A stretch of 64,000 bases of DNA from Deltaproteobacteria bacterium ADurb.Bin207 (GTDB taxonomy: Bacteria > Myxococcota_A > Polyangia > Polyangiales > Polyangiaceae). The stretch spans positions 1 through 64,000 of the forward strand of contig MWCO01000006.1 of assembly GCA_002070115.1 (NCBI GenBank). Direction: 5' to 3'. Position numbers and translations under genes: made by a program. Shown piece after piece: positions 5,208 to 39,570 of this stretch (the stretch's first letter is position 1; each line of letters opens with the position of its first letter). The notes under the pieces are model-generated. The model saw nothing but the letters and a program-made list of their open reading frames with translations. It was not told where the DNA came from and did no database searches.

Positions 5208-6968
5208 ATGAAACAGCTTCGTTTTCGGAACTTACTCCGGCGTCACGTGGTGGGACGCCACACGGAGGTATGGCATCATCGTTCATTTCGTCTTCCCTTG
5301 AGTGCCGTGGGAGGGTTGACGGGATTCGAGCCGCGTCGAGCGGATCTGGTGCTTTGGTTTTTGGCCGACGCGTGGGCGATCGAGGAAGGAATGCTCGAGC
5401 GACCCAATCGGGTTCGTTATCGGGATTTGGCGCGTGTTCATACGCAGGAGTACTTGGAATCGTTGAGTCAGCCCCGAACGTTGGCACGAATATTTGCCGC
5501 GGATGAAACGGAGTTGCAGGTTGATGAGGTTCTGAAAACGATTCGATTCGCGTGTGGTGCGACGGTACAAGCGGCGCGAAGTCGACTTGTCCATGGTGGA
5601 ATTGCCCTGAATTTATTTGGGGGATTTCACCATGCGGCGCCGGATTCTGCGGGTGGTTTTTGTGCGGTCAACGATATTGCGGTGGCCACTGCAGTTCTTC
5701 GAAACGAAGGATTCCGTGGTCGGATCGTGGTCATCGATGTAGACGCGCATCCACCGGATGGTCTGGCAGCGTGTTTTCGTGGAGATTCTTCCGTTTGGGT
5801 GGGGTCCATTTCGGGAGAAAGTTGGGGTCCGCTCGAGGGGGTGGACGAAACGGTATTGCCTCGCGGCTCGGAGGATCGAACGTATTTATGTGCGTTGGAT
5901 CGTATGCTCAGCCGCATGCCCCGTGCTGACTTCGCATTCGTGATCGCGGGGGGAGACGTGGTCGCGGGAGACCGATTGGGTAAGCTCGCACTAACTCTCG
6001 AAGGAGCGCGTCGAAGGGATCGAATGGTGCTCGAAGCGCTTGGCCGGGTTCCATCGGTATGGACGGCCGGAGGGGGATATGGTCGGGAATCGTGGAAAGT
6101 GCTTGCGGGCACGGGGTTGATGCTGACTTGTCGGTCATCGACCGCCATTCCACCCAGCTATGACCCGATGCGCGCTCGTTATGGATGGGTCTCCACCAAG
6201 TTGAGTCGTGAACGACTCGAAGGCGCAGAGGAGTTGTCGGCCAAAGACCTGGAGGAAGCCTTGGGGCTTCGCCCTCCCGAACAACCTCGTTTGCTCGGTT
6301 TGTATACCGCGGAAGGGATTGAATACGCCCTGTCTCACTTCGGCATCATTCCTCATATACGACGCCTCGGTTTCGAACAGGTGCATGCGGCAATCGACGT
6401 GGTGGATATGGGAGACCGGGTTCGTGTGATGGGCAATGCCTTGGGAAAGCAGCACGTATTGGTCGAGTGCATGTTGGAGCGTCGACGTGTTGTCGAGCGG
6501 GATGTGCTGTATGTGCATTGGCTAGCGCTGTGCAATCCTCGGGCGCGGTTCAGTGAGAAGCGTCCGCAACTTCCTGGTCAAGAGGTTCCTGGACTGGGTC
6601 TTGCTCGCGAGATTGGATGGGCCTTGGCGCGCATTGCACGCCGTTTGGGCCTGGAAGGGGTAGCGTATCGGCCCGCGTGGTATCACACGGCCTATAGTGG
6701 GAGATACCACTTCGTTTTCGCGGATTCGAGGCGGCAGGGAAGGTTCGAAGCGATGCAGCGCGATCTTCGGGATATTCCGTTGATCGAGGTGACTCGCGCC
6801 GCGGCCGAAGGGCGATTGCGAAACCATGGTGAACGTTGCACGTGGGAAGCGGAGGAGATGGTGTTTTGGCTATTCGATAGTCCTTTGGATGAAAAGATCG
6901 TGGCCGAAGAACGAGCCAACGCACGGTTCACGATCGTGGCGTCCGAATGTGATAAACACGTCCCATGA
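5208..6968 (+). CDS. Arginase/HDAC-fold deacetylase with extra C-terminal domain
   Basis: Residues 1 to about 320 are a zinc-dependent deacetylase of the HDAC/AcuC/acetylpolyamine amidohydrolase superfamily. The catalytic set is complete: the HH pair (141-142) in GGFHHAAPDSAGGFCAVND, the metal-binding Asp179-x-His181 in VIDVDAHPPDG, a further Asp in IAGGDVVAGDRLG, and the GGGYG tyrosine. Deacetylation of protein lysines or small acetylated amines is inferred from the family; the substrate is not evident. Residues about 340-586 form a second domain I cannot name. It carries WHTAYSGRYHFVFADSRRQG-type sequence and no known catalytic motif. The length of 586 is much above the 340-380 of a bare deacetylase. 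Its stop overlaps the start of the cysteine synthase-CysRS gene (ATGA at 6965-6968), so the two are translationally coupled. Confidence 0.88.
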   Translation: MKQLRFRNLLRRHVVGRHTEVWHHRSFRLPLSAVGGLTGFEPRRADLVLWFLADAWAIEEGMLERPNRVRYRDLARVHTQEYLESLSQPRTLARIFAADETELQVDEVLKTIRFACGATVQAARSRLVHGGIALNLFGGFHHAAPDSAGGFCAVNDIAVATAVLRNEGFRGRIVVIDVDAHPPDGLAACFRGDSSVWVGSISGESWGPLEGVDETVLPRGSEDRTYLCALDRMLSRMPRADFAFVIAGGDVVAGDRLGKLALTLEGARRRDRMVLEALGRVPSVWTAGGGYGRESWKVLAGTGLMLTCRSSTAIPPSYDPMRARYGWVSTKLSRERLEGAEELSAKDLEEALGLRPPEQPRLLGLYTAEGIEYALSHFGIIPHIRRLGFEQVHAAIDVVDMGDRVRVMGNALGKQHVLVECMLERRRVVERDVLYVHWLALCNPRARFSEKRPQLPGQEVPGLGLAREIGWALARIARRLGLEGVAYRPAWYHTAYSGRYHFVFADSRRQGRFEAMQRDLRDIPLIEVTRAAAEGRLRNHGERCTWEAEEMVFWLFDSPLDEKIVAEERANARFTIVASECDKHVP

Positions 6969-9331
6969 CTGACGACACCACGCAACCACGGATGATTCCG
7001 CCTCGGGAAGGCGTTCTTGCGCGCATTGGCAATACCCCCTTGCTTCGTCTTCGCAGGATCAATCCCAACCCGAACGTCGAGATCTGGGTGAAGCTCGAAG
7101 GCAACAACCCGGGGGGTTCCATCAAAGACCGCACAGCGCTGTGGATGATCGAACAGGCGGAAAAGACTGGTGAATTGCATCCGGGCAAAACGATTATCGA
7201 GGCTACCTCCGGCAACACCGGTATCGGACTGGCGATGGTTGCCGCGGTGAAGGGCTATCGTCTGGTGCTTGCCATGAGCGAGGGCGCCTCGGTCGAACGA
7301 AGAAAAATCCTGGCCGCTTACGGCGCGGAGTTGCTGCTCACGCCCGCGGAAAAAAGCACGGATGGTGCGATCGAAGTGGCCTATGAGTTGGCAGCCCAAG
7401 AGCCGGATCGATACTTTCTCGCGGATCAATTCAACAATCCAGCCAACCCCCTCGCTCATTATGAAAGTACGGCACCGGAAATCTGGGAGCAAACAGGCGG
7501 GAGGATCACCCATTTTGTCGCGGCGGTCGGAACGACCGGAACCCTGATGGGTTGCTCACGTCGATTCCGACAGCTCAATCCGAAAATCCGCATCATTGGC
7601 GTCGAGCCCTATCTCGGCCACAAGATCCAGGGCCTGAAAAACCTAAAAGAGTCTTATGTTCCGGGCATTTACAACGCCGGGGCCCTCGATGAAAAAATCA
7701 ATGTCGACGATGATGCCGCATACGAAATGGCTCGTCGTCTCGCCCGTGAGGAAGGTTTGCTCGTAGGCATGAGCGCTGGTGCGGACGTTCACGTTGCCGT
7801 CGAACTTGCCAAACAGATGGAGTCGGGCGTCATCGTTACCATTTTATGTGATGGGGGAGAGCGATACCTCAGCACCACGCTTTTCCAAGTTGCCCAACCG
7901 GATGTCGTTCCTGCTCGCCTGTCGTTTCTCAACACGCTCAGTGGGCGTTACGAGCCTTTCGTTCCTCTGTCTTCCTCCGACGATGTGACGATGTATTCCT
8001 GTGGTCCCACCGTTCACCGACGACCTCATCTCGGGTTGCTTCGTCGCATGCTGGTCGATGATCTCGTGCGTCGTACGCTCGAACATGCTGGGTATCGCGT
8101 GCAGCATGTCGTGAGTGTGACGGATGTGGATGACAATACCGTGCAAGAGTCGGAGCGAACGGGAGAGCCGATGGCAGAGCTTTGCCGTCGCCATGAGCAG
8201 GGTTTTTTTGAGGATTTGGATGCGCTCAAGATATCGAGGGCGGATCAATACGTGCGGGCATCGGAGTCGGTCGATGCGATGATAGCGTTGACGCGCGAGT
8301 TGATGGACGCGGGGGTGGCGTATGAGAAGCTTCGCTCGGTGTATTTCAACATTGGTCGTGTGCCGTCGTATGGGGAGTTGTCGGGCAAAGATTTGGGCAA
8401 GATTCGGATGGGGGCGACGGTGGATTTGGAGCGGTACGACAAGAACGATCCACGGGATTTTACGCTGTTTCGTCGTTCGACCCTGGGAGAGCTTCGCAAG
8501 GGAGTGAGCTACAAGACCGAGTGGGGCAACGTACGTCCGAGCTGGCATGTCCAATGTTCAGCAATGGCGCGCGCGACACTCGGAGATCGATTCGATATCC
8601 ACATGGCGTCGGTCGAACTCGTTTTTCCTCATAATGAAAACGAGATCGCGCAGATCCGAGCGCTCACGGGCAAGCCTCAAGCGCAATTTTGGCTTCATAG
8701 CGAGTTGGTGCTCGTCAACGGTAAGAAGATGACACACGAGGAGGGTTGTGTGACGCTTCAAGACCTGATCGATCGAGGGTACTCGGCGCGAGAAATCCGG
8801 TTCTTCTTGCTTCGTCACCATTATCGGCAACCGGTATGGCTGACCGATGAACGTTTGGAGGAGGCGCGCGCGAGTTTGCGTCGTATCGATGAGTTCGTGA
8901 GCAACTTACAGGAGGTACGCACCGAAGGAGAGCATGTGGAAGAGGTGGCTGGTTGGGTCGTTGGGATGAAGGAGACATTTCGGGCGTCGCTGTACGATGA
9001 TGTCAATCTGCCCGCAGCGATTGCGGGGATTTTCCGTTTGATTCGTCAGGTCAATCACGTGATGGGTCAGGGCAAGCTTTGCGAAGCATGTGCGAAGTTG
9101 GTGCTGGAGGGCCTCACGGAAGTAGATCGCGTACTGTCGATTCTGCCTGCCTTGGAGCCTCAACAAGCGATTCCGCAGGAGATTGCATCGTTGCTCAAAG
9201 AGCGCGATGAGGCTCGAAGCAGGAAGGATTTTGCAAGAGCAGACGAGATTCGCGCGTTGTTGCAGGAGCGCGGCTGGGTGGTGGAGGATCGTGCCACAGG
9301 GTTGCGGGTTCGTCGTAAAGAAGACCGCTAA
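6965..9331 (+). CDS. Fused cysteine synthase and cysteinyl-tRNA synthetase
   Basis: One continuous 788-residue frame joins two enzymes. Residues 1 to about 310 are an O-acetylserine sulfhydrylase/CBS-type PLP enzyme: PLP Lys54 in NPGGSIKDR, the phosphate/sulfhydryl loop EATSGNTGIGLAM, and VGTTGTLMGCSR. Residues about 338-788 are class I cysteinyl-tRNA synthetase. Zinc ligands appear kept: Cys346 in SCGPTV, Cys in WHVQCSAM, His and Glu in FPHNENEIAQ. The C terminus has the usual ARADEIRALLQERGW helix. The HIGH motif is HLGL (355-358) and KMSKS is replaced by KMTHE (588-592), losing the second Lys. The protein could make cysteine and charge it on tRNA, or the synthetase half could do something else. 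It is coupled by ATGA to the deacetylase upstream. Confidence 0.93.
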   Translation: MTDDTTQPRMIPPREGVLARIGNTPLLRLRRINPNPNVEIWVKLEGNNPGGSIKDRTALWMIEQAEKTGELHPGKTIIEATSGNTGIGLAMVAAVKGYRLVLAMSEGASVERRKILAAYGAELLLTPAEKSTDGAIEVAYELAAQEPDRYFLADQFNNPANPLAHYESTAPEIWEQTGGRITHFVAAVGTTGTLMGCSRRFRQLNPKIRIIGVEPYLGHKIQGLKNLKESYVPGIYNAGALDEKINVDDDAAYEMARRLAREEGLLVGMSAGADVHVAVELAKQMESGVIVTILCDGGERYLSTTLFQVAQPDVVPARLSFLNTLSGRYEPFVPLSSSDDVTMYSCGPTVHRRPHLGLLRRMLVDDLVRRTLEHAGYRVQHVVSVTDVDDNTVQESERTGEPMAELCRRHEQGFFEDLDALKISRADQYVRASESVDAMIALTRELMDAGVAYEKLRSVYFNIGRVPSYGELSGKDLGKIRMGATVDLERYDKNDPRDFTLFRRSTLGELRKGVSYKTEWGNVRPSWHVQCSAMARATLGDRFDIHMASVELVFPHNENEIAQIRALTGKPQAQFWLHSELVLVNGKKMTHEEGCVTLQDLIDRGYSAREIRFFLLRHHYRQPVWLTDERLEEARASLRRIDEFVSNLQEVRTEGEHVEEVAGWVVGMKETFRASLYDDVNLPAAIAGIFRLIRQVNHVMGQGKLCEACAKLVLEGLTEVDRVLSILPALEPQQAIPQEIASLLKERDEARSRKDFARADEIRALLQERGWVVEDRATGLRVRRKEDR

Positions 9332-34650: not shown

Positions 34651-36741
34651 CTACTTCGAATCGACTTCCAAAGGCTCAGAAGGCTCGGCAGAAACAGAGG
34701 TATCGCTGTCTTGCGTGTCTTGGGGAGGCACCAAAGGCATATCTTCCGAGACGGATTCCGATGGTTCAGGCGTCGAAAGCTCCGGATCCTTAGCTTGCGG
34801 CGCTGGCTTGGGTTGTGCGGCTACCTTGGATGCGGGGACATAAACCACAAGCTTTTCCCCTTCTTGGAGCGGCGTGCTTCGGGAGCGCTGGTTGATTCGC
34901 TCCAACATGCCCAGACTCAACCCCGTACGGGCAGCGATCGAGCGCCATGTCTCCCCCGATTGGACCACCGTAACCATGCGAACACGGCCTTTTTGCGCCT
35001 CATGATAATCGAAAAAAGCATCGCTCCCCACCACGAACACCTGGACGTCGTCGTCGGATAGCAACCGGACTCGAGACAGCGTTTGCGTTGCCGGAAGCAG
35101 AGTCAGAAGCAGCATCCCAGGATGCAGTCGCGCCCTGACATCCAAGCCGTTCCAACGAATGAGATCGTCGACTCTCACAGATAACGCATTGGCGACACCC
35201 TGAAGGGTATCTCCGGCCACAGCTTGATAAAACCTGCGTTGGTATCCCGCGGGGGGTTGTAGATCCACGGGAACGGCCACGGCGATTTTTTCCGTGGTGG
35301 GACTGGCCCTTCGGCGGGGAGGAACCATCAACAAAAGGCCGGGACGGATGGGTTCATCACTGGTCAGGGCGTTGTGCCGACTGAGTTCCTGCGTGGTCGT
35401 TCCGTGGGCGGCGGCAATATCCGCGAGGCTTTCCCCGTGACGGACGGTATAGGGCACGAGTTCGGGTTCGGCCACGCGGGTTTGGACCAGGTTGGCTTCG
35501 ACCTTCGCTCCGTGGCCTTTGGGAACACGCACGGTCCATACGCCAGCCGCGGCACGCGTGGGCGCTCGGGGAGGAATCCTCGAAGCGAGCAATTGCGGAT
35601 TGAGCTGTCCAATATCGGAAACGTCGACTTCCGCGGCCTTGGCTACCGATTCGAGGGAGACGCCGGGAACGACATCCACTTCATCGAATTCGGCTGGAGG
35701 ATCGCGGGTAAGGTTGGCGAGACCGAAGACCTCGGGGTTTTTGCCCACGACCGCAAGAGCCAGGATTTTGGGAACATAAAGGGCAGTCTCCCAGGGGACG
35801 CCCGCCTCGAAACGAGATAACTCCCAGAAATCATTGGTATTATACTTGCGCAGGGCGGCCAGCATTCCGCCATAACCCATGTTGTAGGAGCCGAGAGCAA
35901 GTTCCCACGTGCCGAAACGTCGATATAGGTCCTGCAAATACATCGCGGCCGCATGGGTCGAGCGTACGGGATCCAGCCGTTCGTCTACCCAGCGGTCAAT
36001 GACAAGTCCGTAAAGCCTTCCTGATTCTGGCATGAATTGCCAGAGGCCGGCGGCGCCGACGGGGGAGTAGATCGTGGGGTTGAGTCCGCTTTCCACGACC
36101 GCGACCCACATGAGATCTTCAGGCAATCCGTGGTGTCGGAGCACCGAACGGAGCATGGGCTCGAATCGTCCGCTTTTTCGATAAAAGATGGCTGCGACAG
36201 CTCTTCCCCGAGAATCATTCTTATAAAAATCAAGGTATTGCACGACCCGGGAGGTGAACTTCACAGGCACATCGGGCATACGCAGGGAGGATAAGTAATC
36301 GGGCTGGGGGCTGGTGTTTTGGGCTCGTGGAGCGACGGAAGACGGGGGCAATCCTGTAGAAAACACCAGCGTATTGCTGGCATCGGGGAGCAATTCGGGG
36401 GGACAGCCGTCGGAGGGAACGAGCAGGTCATCGGTGCCAAAAAGCTCCCTTTCGGCTTGCCGGAGGGCTTGGAGTTCCGGAGGTTCGGGGGATGGCGGGG
36501 GTTCGGCTCCGGGACCAGCGGTAGCTCGACGCACGGCGGGAGCTGGAGGTTGTTGGGGTTTATTGGAGCGGTTTTTTTTGGGGGCCGCGGATCGGGCTGG
36601 GGCTTTGGGCTGTTTTTTCGCCCACGCCGCATCCCCCGGATCCAGCGGCCCCATCGGTTGGGCAGCTTCCCGCGCGCCCGCCGCCGAAGGACAAAGCGCC
36701 AGCAGGAGAAAAACAATGCTGGTGGATCGAGTGAGTCCCAT
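34651..36741 (-). CDS. MltD-like lytic transglycosylase with LysM repeats
   Basis: A 696-residue exported murein hydrolase. Signal peptide MGLTRSTSIVFLLLALCPSAAGA, a Pro/Ala/Lys-rich linker, then a GH23 transglycosylase domain (about 190-330) with the catalytic Glu217 in VVESGLNPTIYSPVGAAG and the WQFMPESGRLYGL and GSYNMGYGG motifs. Three clear LysM repeats follow (VRHGESLADIAAAHGTTTQE, VAGDTLQGVANALSVRVDDL, VQSGETWRSIAARTGLSLGM) plus a weaker LysM-like segment near 360 (VVPGVSLESVAKAAEVDVSD). The tail is rich in Ser/Glu/Pro. It cleaves glycan strands, with LysM holding the substrate. Divergent from valS. Confidence 0.93.
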   Translation of the reverse strand: MGLTRSTSIVFLLLALCPSAAGAREAAQPMGPLDPGDAAWAKKQPKAPARSAAPKKNRSNKPQQPPAPAVRRATAGPGAEPPPSPEPPELQALRQAERELFGTDDLLVPSDGCPPELLPDASNTLVFSTGLPPSSVAPRAQNTSPQPDYLSSLRMPDVPVKFTSRVVQYLDFYKNDSRGRAVAAIFYRKSGRFEPMLRSVLRHHGLPEDLMWVAVVESGLNPTIYSPVGAAGLWQFMPESGRLYGLVIDRWVDERLDPVRSTHAAAMYLQDLYRRFGTWELALGSYNMGYGGMLAALRKYNTNDFWELSRFEAGVPWETALYVPKILALAVVGKNPEVFGLANLTRDPPAEFDEVDVVPGVSLESVAKAAEVDVSDIGQLNPQLLASRIPPRAPTRAAAGVWTVRVPKGHGAKVEANLVQTRVAEPELVPYTVRHGESLADIAAAHGTTTQELSRHNALTSDEPIRPGLLLMVPPRRRASPTTEKIAVAVPVDLQPPAGYQRRFYQAVAGDTLQGVANALSVRVDDLIRWNGLDVRARLHPGMLLLTLLPATQTLSRVRLLSDDDVQVFVVGSDAFFDYHEAQKGRVRMVTVVQSGETWRSIAARTGLSLGMLERINQRSRSTPLQEGEKLVVYVPASKVAAQPKPAPQAKDPELSTPEPSESVSEDMPLVPPQDTQDSDTSVSAEPSEPLEVDSK

Positions 36742-36891
36742 GAATCAAGAAACGGTCATGTCACGTACCCACGATTCCGTCAAATTGCTCGTGATCAGGG
36801 TCAACAACCCCTCGACGCCCCTCTTTACGTGGTTGCCAGTTTGATCTACGGGGCTCCTGCCCCACCCCGGGCCGACGGAAGGTTCAGTCCC

Positions 36892-39570
36892 ATGAATCAA
36901 AACAAGATGTTTCGAACCATCGATGCCGCCTCTTTGCCCAAGCATTTCGACGCTGCCGAGGCCGAAAAACGCTGGGATGCGACCTGGGAGAAAAACGACG
37001 TCCATCGTTATGACCCCGATCGGCCTCGCCACGAAACGTTTGCCGTCGATACGCCACCACCCACCGTTTCCGGCTCTTTGCACATCGGGCATGTCTTTTC
37101 TTATACGCATACGGACGTCATCGTTCGGTATCAGCGCATGCGTGGCCGCAATATTTTTTATCCCATGGGCTGGGACGACAACGGTCTTCCCACCGAGCGG
37201 CGCGTTCAAAACTACTTCAACGTCCGTTGTGATCCCCATGTGCCTTACGAACCCGGCTTGACACTGACCGAAGCCACGGGAAAAGCGGCCAAAGACAAGC
37301 CACGTATCATTTCACGCCCGAATTTCATCGAGCTTTGTCTGCAACTCACCGCGGAAGACGAAAAGGCTTTCACGAATCTATGGCGCCGGATTGGCCTTTC
37401 GGTGGATTGGAAGGAGCAATACGCCACCATCGACGATCATTGTCGAACCTTGGCGCAGCTTAGTTTTTTGGATCTTTTCGAAAAGCAGCACATTTACAAC
37501 CATGAAGCGCCCACGATGTGGGATGTCGACTTTCAAACCGCGGTCGCGCAGGCCGAGGTGGAAGATAGGCCCACGGCGGGGGCTTTCCATGACATCGTGT
37601 TCGGGGTGGAGGGTTCGGACGATTCTCTGATGATTTCCACCACCCGTCCGGAATTGCTCGCGGCTTGCGTGGGGGTTACCGCCCATCCGGACGATGCACG
37701 CTACCGGCATCTTTTCGGTAAGCGCGCGATTACACCGGTTTTTCACGTGCCTGTGCCGATTTTCCCAAGCGAACTCGCGGATCCTCAAAAAGGAACCGGC
37801 ATTCTCATGGTTTGCACCTTCGGTGATGCCACCGACGTGCTTTGGTGGCGCGAACAGAAACTGGCGTTGCGGCAAATCGTAGGGCGTGATGGACGCCTCA
37901 TGCCCGTGCAATTTGGCGTGCAGGGCTGGGAGAGCCTTCACTCCGACAAGGCCAACGAAGCGTACGCGCAGCTCTCGGGCAAAAGCGTCAAGCAGGCCAA
38001 AGCCATCATGGTCGAGCTTCTTCGCATGCCCCAATGCAGTGCTCATGGCCCGGAGTGCCCGTTACGGGGCGAGCCCAAACCGTTGCAGCATGCGGTCAAG
38101 TTTTTCGAAAAAGGCGACCGGCCGCTGGAGTTCGTGACCACACGACAATGGTTCGTTCGCTTGATGGATCAAAAAGAAGCGCTGCTTGCCAAAGGAGACG
38201 AGGTCCAGTGGCATCCGGAGTTCATGCGCAGCCGCTATCGCAATTGGACGGAAAACTTGCAGCTCGACTGGTGCATCAGTCGTCAGCGCTATTTCGGTGT
38301 TCCTTTCCCGGTCTGGTATCCCCTCGATGAACAGGGTCAGCCGGATTATTCCAAACCCATTGTCGCACCCCGTGAGCGTTTGCCCGTCGATCCGATGTCC
38401 GATACACCCCCTGGACATGATCCCTCCCAACGGGACCAACCCGGCGGATTTACAGGGGAATCCGACGTTTTCGACACATGGTTCACCAGCTCGCTCACGC
38501 CACAGATCGGAACGCATTGGCAGCTCGCCCCCGCGCGGCACGAGAAGCTTTTTCCGATGGATATCCGACCGCAAAGCCATGAGATCATTCGAACGTGGGC
38601 CTTTTATTCGATCGCAAAAGCCTTGCTTCACGAAAACAAAGTGCCCTGGAACCATGTGGTCATCTCCGGATGGATCCTCGATCCGGACCGAAAAAAAATG
38701 TCCAAAAGCAAGGGCAACGTCGTGACGCCCATGCATCTTCTGGATGAGTACACGGCCGATGGCGTGCGATATTGGGCAGCGAATGCCAAGCTCGGCTCGG
38801 ATACGGCATTCGATGAAAAGGTGCTGAAAGTCGGTCGAAGACTGGTCACCAAGCTATTCAACGCGGGCAAGTTCGTGCTTGGGCAAAGCGCCTCCGTGCA
38901 TCCGATCCAATGCGAGTTGGATCGCGCTTTCGTGCATACGTTGCGACAGATGTGTTCGAAGGCGACGGAATCATTCGATGCTTTCGAATATGCCCACGCG
39001 TTGATGGCCACGGAATCGTTCTTCTGGACGCACTTCACGGATGCACATATCGAGTTGGTCAAGGCGCGGGCACGAGGTGAATGCTCGTGCGACGGAGTTG
39101 ACGATGAGGCTGCCCGAGGCTCGGCGGTCGCATCCTTGCGTCTTGGATTGAGCGTGCTGCTTCGCATGTTTGCCCCGGTGGTTCCCTTCATTACCGAAGA
39201 GGTATGGTCGTGGGTTTTCGCGGAAGAAACCGGGCACCCGAGCATTCATCGGGCACCGTGGCCGACCGAAGCGGAATTCGCCTCGATTGCACCACCCGAA
39301 GATGCTTCCTCGTTCGACGTCGCAGTGGCTTGCTGGACCGCGATCAACAAACGAAAGAGCGAAGCAGGCGTTTCGGTCGCCCGCCCGGCGGAAATCCTGG
39401 TGCTCGCAGCGCATCCCCACACCGTCACCGTGCTCGAACGCGTCGTGCAAGACGTCATGGCTGCCGCGCATTGCAAGAATTTTCGGATTGAAAAAGACGA
39501 ATCCCTCGCGGAAGGTATGTTTGACGTGCTGCAAGCGGTCTTCGAAGAGAAAAAAACCGATCCGAGCTGA
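36892..39570 (+). CDS. valS: Valyl-tRNA synthetase
   Basis: An 892-residue class I synthetase. The HIGH motif is in PPPTVSGSLHIGHVFSYTH and KMSKS in DRKKMSKSKGNVVTP. The editing-domain motif STTRPELLAACVG and the WDDNGLPTERRV block are typical of ValRS. The real start is ATG 36892 (MNQNKMFRTIDAASLPKHFD). The frame is open for 191 further codons upstream, but that stretch lies opposite mltD and has the Gly/Arg-rich look of an antisense frame. An SD-like GGAAGG precedes the ATG. The 150-bp gap to mltD should hold both divergent promoters. Confidence 0.97.
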   Translation: MNQNKMFRTIDAASLPKHFDAAEAEKRWDATWEKNDVHRYDPDRPRHETFAVDTPPPTVSGSLHIGHVFSYTHTDVIVRYQRMRGRNIFYPMGWDDNGLPTERRVQNYFNVRCDPHVPYEPGLTLTEATGKAAKDKPRIISRPNFIELCLQLTAEDEKAFTNLWRRIGLSVDWKEQYATIDDHCRTLAQLSFLDLFEKQHIYNHEAPTMWDVDFQTAVAQAEVEDRPTAGAFHDIVFGVEGSDDSLMISTTRPELLAACVGVTAHPDDARYRHLFGKRAITPVFHVPVPIFPSELADPQKGTGILMVCTFGDATDVLWWREQKLALRQIVGRDGRLMPVQFGVQGWESLHSDKANEAYAQLSGKSVKQAKAIMVELLRMPQCSAHGPECPLRGEPKPLQHAVKFFEKGDRPLEFVTTRQWFVRLMDQKEALLAKGDEVQWHPEFMRSRYRNWTENLQLDWCISRQRYFGVPFPVWYPLDEQGQPDYSKPIVAPRERLPVDPMSDTPPGHDPSQRDQPGGFTGESDVFDTWFTSSLTPQIGTHWQLAPARHEKLFPMDIRPQSHEIIRTWAFYSIAKALLHENKVPWNHVVISGWILDPDRKKMSKSKGNVVTPMHLLDEYTADGVRYWAANAKLGSDTAFDEKVLKVGRRLVTKLFNAGKFVLGQSASVHPIQCELDRAFVHTLRQMCSKATESFDAFEYAHALMATESFFWTHFTDAHIELVKARARGECSCDGVDDEAARGSAVASLRLGLSVLLRMFAPVVPFITEEVWSWVFAEETGHPSIHRAPWPTEAEFASIAPPEDASSFDVAVACWTAINKRKSEAGVSVARPAEILVLAAHPHTVTVLERVVQDVMAAAHCKNFRIEKDESLAEGMFDVLQAVFEEKKTDPS

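Follow-up and report, generated by a model that had tools for sequence, protein, structure and literature searches.

A CysM-type cysteine synthase fused to a likely repurposed cysteinyl-tRNA synthetase paralog in Myxococcota

HisZ, a paralog of histidyl-tRNA synthetase (HisRS) that does not adenylate, regulates HisG (PMC9437257). Cysteinyl-tRNA synthetase (CysRS) also has described paralogs. MshC is one, with a conserved cysteine pocket, and in Desulfobacterales a second CysRS, termed CysRS*, stands beside the normal one; CysRS*, which is described as coupled to SelC*/SelB*, has no anticodon domain. Here we describe a further case in Deltaproteobacteria bacterium ADurb.Bin207. The window, by which we mean the whole stretch of 64,000 nucleotides that was analyzed (contig MWCO01000006.1, positions 1 to 64,000), carries on its forward strand, at 6965-9331, a CysM-type cysteine synthase that continues into a full-length CysRS-like half, which we call CysRS'. 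This CysM-CysRS' fusion is a new domain architecture, and CysRS' is a probably neofunctionalized paralog of known enzymes. Repurposing of the CysRS' half is likely, and it has probably left translation. Our preferred reading, a tentative one to which we give somewhat less than an even chance, is that CysRS' is a cysteine-binding paralog which works in cis with CysM, its likeliest role being that of a cysteine sensor or regulator comparable to HisZ.

The gene is a single open frame of 788 amino acids with an ATG start and no internal stops. Pfam matches on the protein are PALP at residues 20-296 (1.1e-77), tRNA-synt_1e at 337-635 (4.7e-80), DALR_2 at 672-720 and CysS_C at 735-783. The CysM-type half comprises residues 1-307 (6965-7885), as judged from NCBIfam, Pfam and the best solved relative. 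A linker of about residues 308-318 (7886-7918) is placed by the domain ends of the flanking matches. It is followed by the CysRS-like catalytic domain at 7919-8869 (PF01406, 272.8 bits), DALR_2 at 8978-9124 and the CysRS anticodon-binding domain, CysS_C, at 9167-9313, all on the forward strand. With catalytic, DALR and anticodon-binding domains, CysRS' has all of the domains of CysRS. A sequence-only reading of this DNA had proposed one uninterrupted frame carrying a cysteine synthase, with a pyridoxal phosphate (PLP) lysine at K54, and a CysRS-like half; both halves were matched by Pfam and NCBIfam. A missed frameshift near codons 310-338, which would have undone that proposal, was not seen, as the frame is fused in 19 carrier genomes and the C-terminal motif of CysM and the CGP motif of CysRS lie 36-43 residues apart in these 19 fusions. 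Since fused genes are present in 19 carriers, an assembly error or chimera is ruled out. No title or abstract start in the literature searched describes a CysM-CysRS' fusion, most full texts being outside that check.

From its sequence, the CysM half is apparently an intact cysteine synthase. It scores 399.6 bits against the NCBIfam model cysM (TIGR01138), above the cut-off of 394.2, and its nearest solved relative by sequence is cysteine synthase B, 2bhs (9e-93). The TSGNTG and GTTGT motifs are present, as is the PLP lysine K54 in GGSIKDR (7124-7126), which is a lysine in all 25 readable family rows (G207, to use our working labels for carrier genomes, is cut here). In these respects the half resembles E. 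coli-type CysM. It differs in being fused and in belonging to a clade of its own with a distinctive GHKIQGLK[NS]LKEAYVPGI-type loop; the CysM halves of the carriers cluster together (26/26), and 21 stand-alone relatives fall outside this cluster (FastTree tree with midpoint rooting; local support 0.88).

The CysRS' half passes the NCBIfam cysS model (TIGR00435) marginally, with 342.1 bits against a cut-off of 340. Its nearest solved relatives are CysRS 8qhp (1.1e-82) and then the MshC chain 8hfm (5.4e-41). Residues were scored by alignment to E. coli CysRS, in readable cells only. The zinc ligands, previously read as intact, are indeed all present in the window's protein: C346 (8000-8002) and C531 (8555-8557), equivalent to C28 and C209 of E. 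coli CysRS, occur in 26/26 rows each, H556 (8630-8632; H234) in 25/25 readable rows, and E560 (8642-8644; E238) in 22 of 25 readable rows, with T in the other three. W205, H224 and E238 we take to be parts of the CysRS pocket. The pocket roles of C28, C209, H234, T31 and T68 are transferred through our own alignment from MshC, in which the matching residues hold zinc and the amino group of cysteine (PMC9736012). In the cysteine/zinc pocket, the E. coli residue is retained in 223 of 231 readable cells (80/81 in the window's subclade), while at the HIGH and KMSKS positions it is retained in only 125 of 203 (35/72 in the subclade). The canonical CysRS of the carrier genomes, by comparison, retain 207/207 and 179/184, respectively.

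The changes in the signature motifs are specific. In the window's protein HIGH is HLGL (H355-L-G-L358; 8027-8038) and, by motif alignment, KMSKS is KMTHE (K588-M-T-H-E592; 8726-8740), just as had been read from the sequence at first. The second histidine of HIGH is replaced in 26/26 CysRS' rows (L in 22, V in 2, F in 2) and the second lysine of KMSKS in 25/25 readable rows (R in 15, Y in 8, H and W in one each). Loss of the HIGH second histidine is family-wide; the KMTHE-type loop is limited to one nine-genome subclade, that of the window (100/100), in which the loop follows K-[MVA]-[TS]-[YH]-x-[ED] in 9/9 rows. Because this recurring pattern replaces KMSKS, its loss in the subclade looks like a change of function and not decay. 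Further, at 11 positions, including H40, at least 22 of 26 CysRS' rows share a new residue where at least 19 of 23 canonical rows share another. By our alignment H40 equals H55 of HIGH in MshC, which contacts the sulfonamide of a cysteinyl-sulfonamide ligand (PMC9736012). Persulfide synthesis by the KMSK lysines was set aside since the second of these lysines is missing in CysRS'.

A cysteine sensor is the simplest account of a half in which the cysteine pocket is kept and the ATP motifs are altered, and which is strictly coupled to the enzyme producing the ligand. The CysRS' half would bind cysteine, or a close analog, made by the CysM half, and the bound cysteine would regulate CysM, by feedback or activation, instead of serving tRNA charging. 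The coupling expected of a HisZ-type system was found in that CysRS' is fused or adjacent to CysM in 26/26 carriers, which were themselves found by such pairing. HisRS is a class II synthetase and CysRS a class I synthetase, so HisZ and CysRS' are not homologous. What they would share is the logic of linking a synthetase paralog to the making of its cognate amino acid; they differ in that HisZ is described as a subunit (PMC9437257) and CysRS' is in a fusion.

Several points weigh against a sensor. The first H of HIGH is retained in 23/26 rows and the first K of KMSKS in 24/25 readable rows, so ATP binding may survive in CysRS'. The earlier description of KMSKS as degraded is therefore apt as far as the motif is altered, but not where this retention and the recurring subclade pattern are concerned. 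In MshC the first K of KMSKS is the one that touches the ligand (PMC9736012). Outside of the window's subclade the loop is KMSRS in 13 of 16 readable rows, which is a conservative change; the others are KMSRA (G207), KMSWS (G221) and PVSRR (G500). The anticodon-binding domain has also been kept, aligning in all 25 readable rows (25 of 26 in the family; G407 is cut by the contig end), though a pure small-molecule sensor need not keep one. Within the class the gene occurs patchily, in 17 of 317 genomes, which would be unexpected of a core regulator, and any CysRS' without CysM would have been missed because carriers were found by the pairing itself. Finally, structure prediction from four sequences gave a mean pLDDT of 50.8 and a pTM of 0.44, too low to read the domain interface. 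Since the anticodon domain and the first lysine and histidine are kept, the sensor has real rivals in an MshC-like ligase and a slowly charging CysRS.

The MshC-like ligase would activate cysteine with ATP and join it to a small amine, such that CysM and CysRS' would together yield a cysteinyl conjugate or thiol cofactor. MshC itself is the precedent (PMC9736012), and the retained cysteine pocket, the retained first K and the KMSRS loops outside of the subclade all fit, as do the amidohydrolase genes of HyuA and SsnA type found directly upstream in 3/26 carriers. However, four MshC-like rows keep HIGH, including its second His, and KMSKS, whereas the second His is replaced in 26/26 family rows and the window's subclade has lost KMSKS. 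At about 411-413 amino acids (model 411 positions, solved chain 413), MshC is also too short for the CysS_C domain kept in CysRS', and has no C-terminal anticodon-binding domain. Against the MshC model TIGR03447, CysRS' scores 195.2 bits (cut-off 485.1), and its rows form a clade separate from the MshC-like ones. Based on these observations, we consider such a ligase unlikely.

Continued tRNA charging by CysRS', whether slow or specialized (for stress, or for channeling the CysM product to tRNA-Cys), would agree with the anticodon-binding domain and with a TIGR00435 score barely above the cut-off. Against this, signature motifs are altered in every row and another CysRS is present in 24/26 carriers (in G207 no more than a fragment where a contig ends). 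The two carriers lacking one, G222 and G506, have genomes that are 65% and 68% complete. A stand-alone cysS, for which a search had been suggested, was found in the window's genome at G000:C11:71806-73317; its PF01406 score is 414 bits, as against 273 for the fusion, and a CysK is also present (TIGR01139, 455.1 bits, cut-off 351). The CysRS' half is thus a paralog of CysRS, standing beside a normal copy. A fused gene with intact KMSKS and no stand-alone cysS, which would have told against repurposing, was not found, KMSKS being present in no family row. The window's genome (97% complete) has one tRNA-Cys among 45 tRNAs, which tells against a dedicated second tRNA-Cys. No tRNA gene was found in the window. 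A scan of 18 of the 26 carrier loci gave a single tRNA-Pro as the only tRNA gene, with no tRNA-Cys or tRNA-Sec. This separates the family from CysRS*, as does the anticodon domain that CysRS' keeps. Channeling of cysteine to tRNA, as first suggested for this gene, is not supported in a genome with a normal CysRS and a single tRNA-Cys, and we regard a slow or specialized synthetase as decidedly unlikely.

Phylogenetic analysis is consistent with repurposing. A CysRS tree was built from 59 rows, namely 25 CysRS' (G407 omitted), 23 canonical CysRS of carriers and 11 actinomycete rows, four of which were taken for MshC solely on the basis of length and motif. In this tree the CysRS' rows make up a single clade (100/100), with conserved residues of its own, apart from both the canonical CysRS of the same genomes and the MshC-like rows; the comparison with CysRS and MshC that had been called for therefore places CysRS' with neither. 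Values of dN/dS were 0.08-0.28 in every pair tested (six pairs for the CysRS' half, four for the CysM half), those of distant pairs being rough as dS ranged from 0.34 to 3.3. From its sequence, CysRS' resembles a new family under constraint rather than a decaying gene. A dying gene or an assembly artifact could be argued from the sporadic distribution and the altered motifs, but with 19 fused genes, a conserved pocket and these dN/dS values it is hardly credible. One subclade unites members of different families and classes, and the disagreement between the gene tree and the family and class labels suggests transfer between lineages. For example, G218 and G219 fall among rows of family f1, and G265 and G267 with f40 rows. 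Separately, three actinomycete loci (L185, L186 and L187, from Herbidospora, Streptosporangium and Nonomuraea) hold further CysRS-like paralogs beside CysRS and MshC-like genes, with the motifs HVGQ or HVGN and KIRKA or KMAKS.

Full-protein searches at a strict threshold (E 1e-120 or 1e-100), in genome sets that overlap, matched 7 of 183 genomes of the order, 17 of 317 of the class, 11 of 377 drawn from the phylum and 9 of 52 of a second class in the phylum; a looser search, covering 39 relatives, turned up four fusions. In total, the survey of domain co-occurrence yielded 26 distinct carrier genomes in the window's phylum, 19 with a fused gene and seven with adjacent separate genes. Two of the 19 fused genes are cut by contig ends (G207 on the 5' side, G407 on the 3' side), and the 17 complete ones, with the window's own gene counted among them, are 48-72% identical to the window's protein. 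A peptide-pattern scan of 84,980 species, which reaches close relatives only and says nothing on other phyla, returned 75 loci. Seventy-two matched the cysteine-synthase half only; the remaining three (L005, L006 and L007) are family members and, by equal coordinates, are the carriers G218, G219 and G206. In a plasmid collection 844 records matched, and the one covering more than 80% of the query (Acetoanaerobium) has two separate open reading frames (ORFs) with canonical KMSKS. The seven split pairs form one clade. The fused G500 adjoins it in the CysRS' tree (94/57), where G500 and G404 have long branches, and lies outside all others in the CysM tree. Together, the placement of G500 and the single split clade are compatible with a single fission or with two fusions.

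Directly upstream of the fusion, genes for a HyuA-like (dihydropyrimidinase-type) protein and an SsnA-like amidohydrolase occur in the same order in three of the 26 carriers, G219, G221 and G222 (L006 923-3664; L167 10410-13388; L169 3738-6616), the NCBIfam names having been read from G219 and G222 only. The HyuA, SsnA and fusion genes nearly abut in G219 and are at most about 90 bases apart elsewhere. In G218 a contig end cuts SsnA near its 3' end and a second contig end is situated 173 bp before the fusion, which is compatible with the same order. SsnA homologs were found in 17/26 carriers and in 1/14 hand-picked non-carriers. Across the class the counts were 12/17 carriers and 36/300 non-carriers (Fisher p 1.4e-7), with a query that favors carriers, as it was built from the SsnA of nine of them, and with genomes that are not independent. 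SsnA and HyuA are part of a reductive urate pathway in E. coli whose last enzyme, a PALP-family lyase, acts after both (PMC12507026).

A further candidate reading is a reductive purine or hydantoin pathway in which the CysM half would replace the PLP lyase YgeX, with albizziin or 2,3-diaminopropionate as its substrate and perhaps sulfide as a second one from which cysteine would result, and CysRS' would handle the product. Nevertheless, nine carriers have no SsnA match, five of them more than 90% complete (G109, G267, G341, G368 and G472), and the SsnA of the window's genome is not linked to the fusion but sits next to an allantoinase/HyuA-like gene (L211 9009-11827, C7). The SsnA of G219 scores 426 bits, below the cut-off of 444, the CysM half keeps ordinary CysM motifs, and the SsnA cluster of G186 has a PALP gene of its own. 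We think this role for the fusion quite improbable, and treat the HyuA-SsnA pathway link as a lead only. A PreA-type gene was present in 9/14 carriers tested and was not found in the window's genome. The gene row of G186 (L213 7450-14103) includes the threonine-synthase-like PALP gene, SsnA, a PreA/YgfK-like fused reductase and an ornithine-carbamoyltransferase-family gene that scores below both the OTC and the YgeW cut-offs; it may be a reductive urate cluster. A broader proposal returns to the sensor. In it, a class I synthetase paralog would be a built-in cysteine sensor, an independent reinvention of HisZ-HisG in one polypeptide, which in part of the family would sit inside a HyuA-SsnA purine- or hydantoin-linked pathway whose C3 skeleton could feed CysM. 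This combination is possible but doubtful.

Beyond HyuA-SsnA, no conserved neighborhood was found: the 40 largest clusters held only neighbors shared by two or three genomes, or else ORFs that overlap the gene itself, and about eight carrier loci end within a few kb of it. In the window, an ORF of 586 amino acids on the forward strand (5208-6968), with a histone-deacetylase/acetoin-utilization family domain in its first half, overlaps the start of the fusion by 4 bp, so the two are probably co-transcribed in this genome. It had no NCBIfam match at 1e-10, and the other carrier loci compared showed no relative of it next to the gene. A search of the window for a riboswitch or T-box gave no Rfam match at gathering thresholds. 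Elsewhere in the window, a large class I synthetase-type ORF with HIGH and KMSKS (36319-39570), presumably of ValRS type, accounts for the genome's weak third PF01406 match, in the KMSKS region only.

In conclusion, this family joins a cysteine-making enzyme to what is probably a former cysteinyl-tRNA synthetase. Its loops, from KMSRS to the KMTYEE type, form a natural series that could show which signature residues can go while the pocket stays. If CysRS' is a ligase, it would point to an undescribed cysteinyl metabolite in Myxococcota. If instead CysRS' senses cysteine, as we tentatively favor, synthetase paralogs would have been recruited as amino-acid sensors from both synthetase classes.

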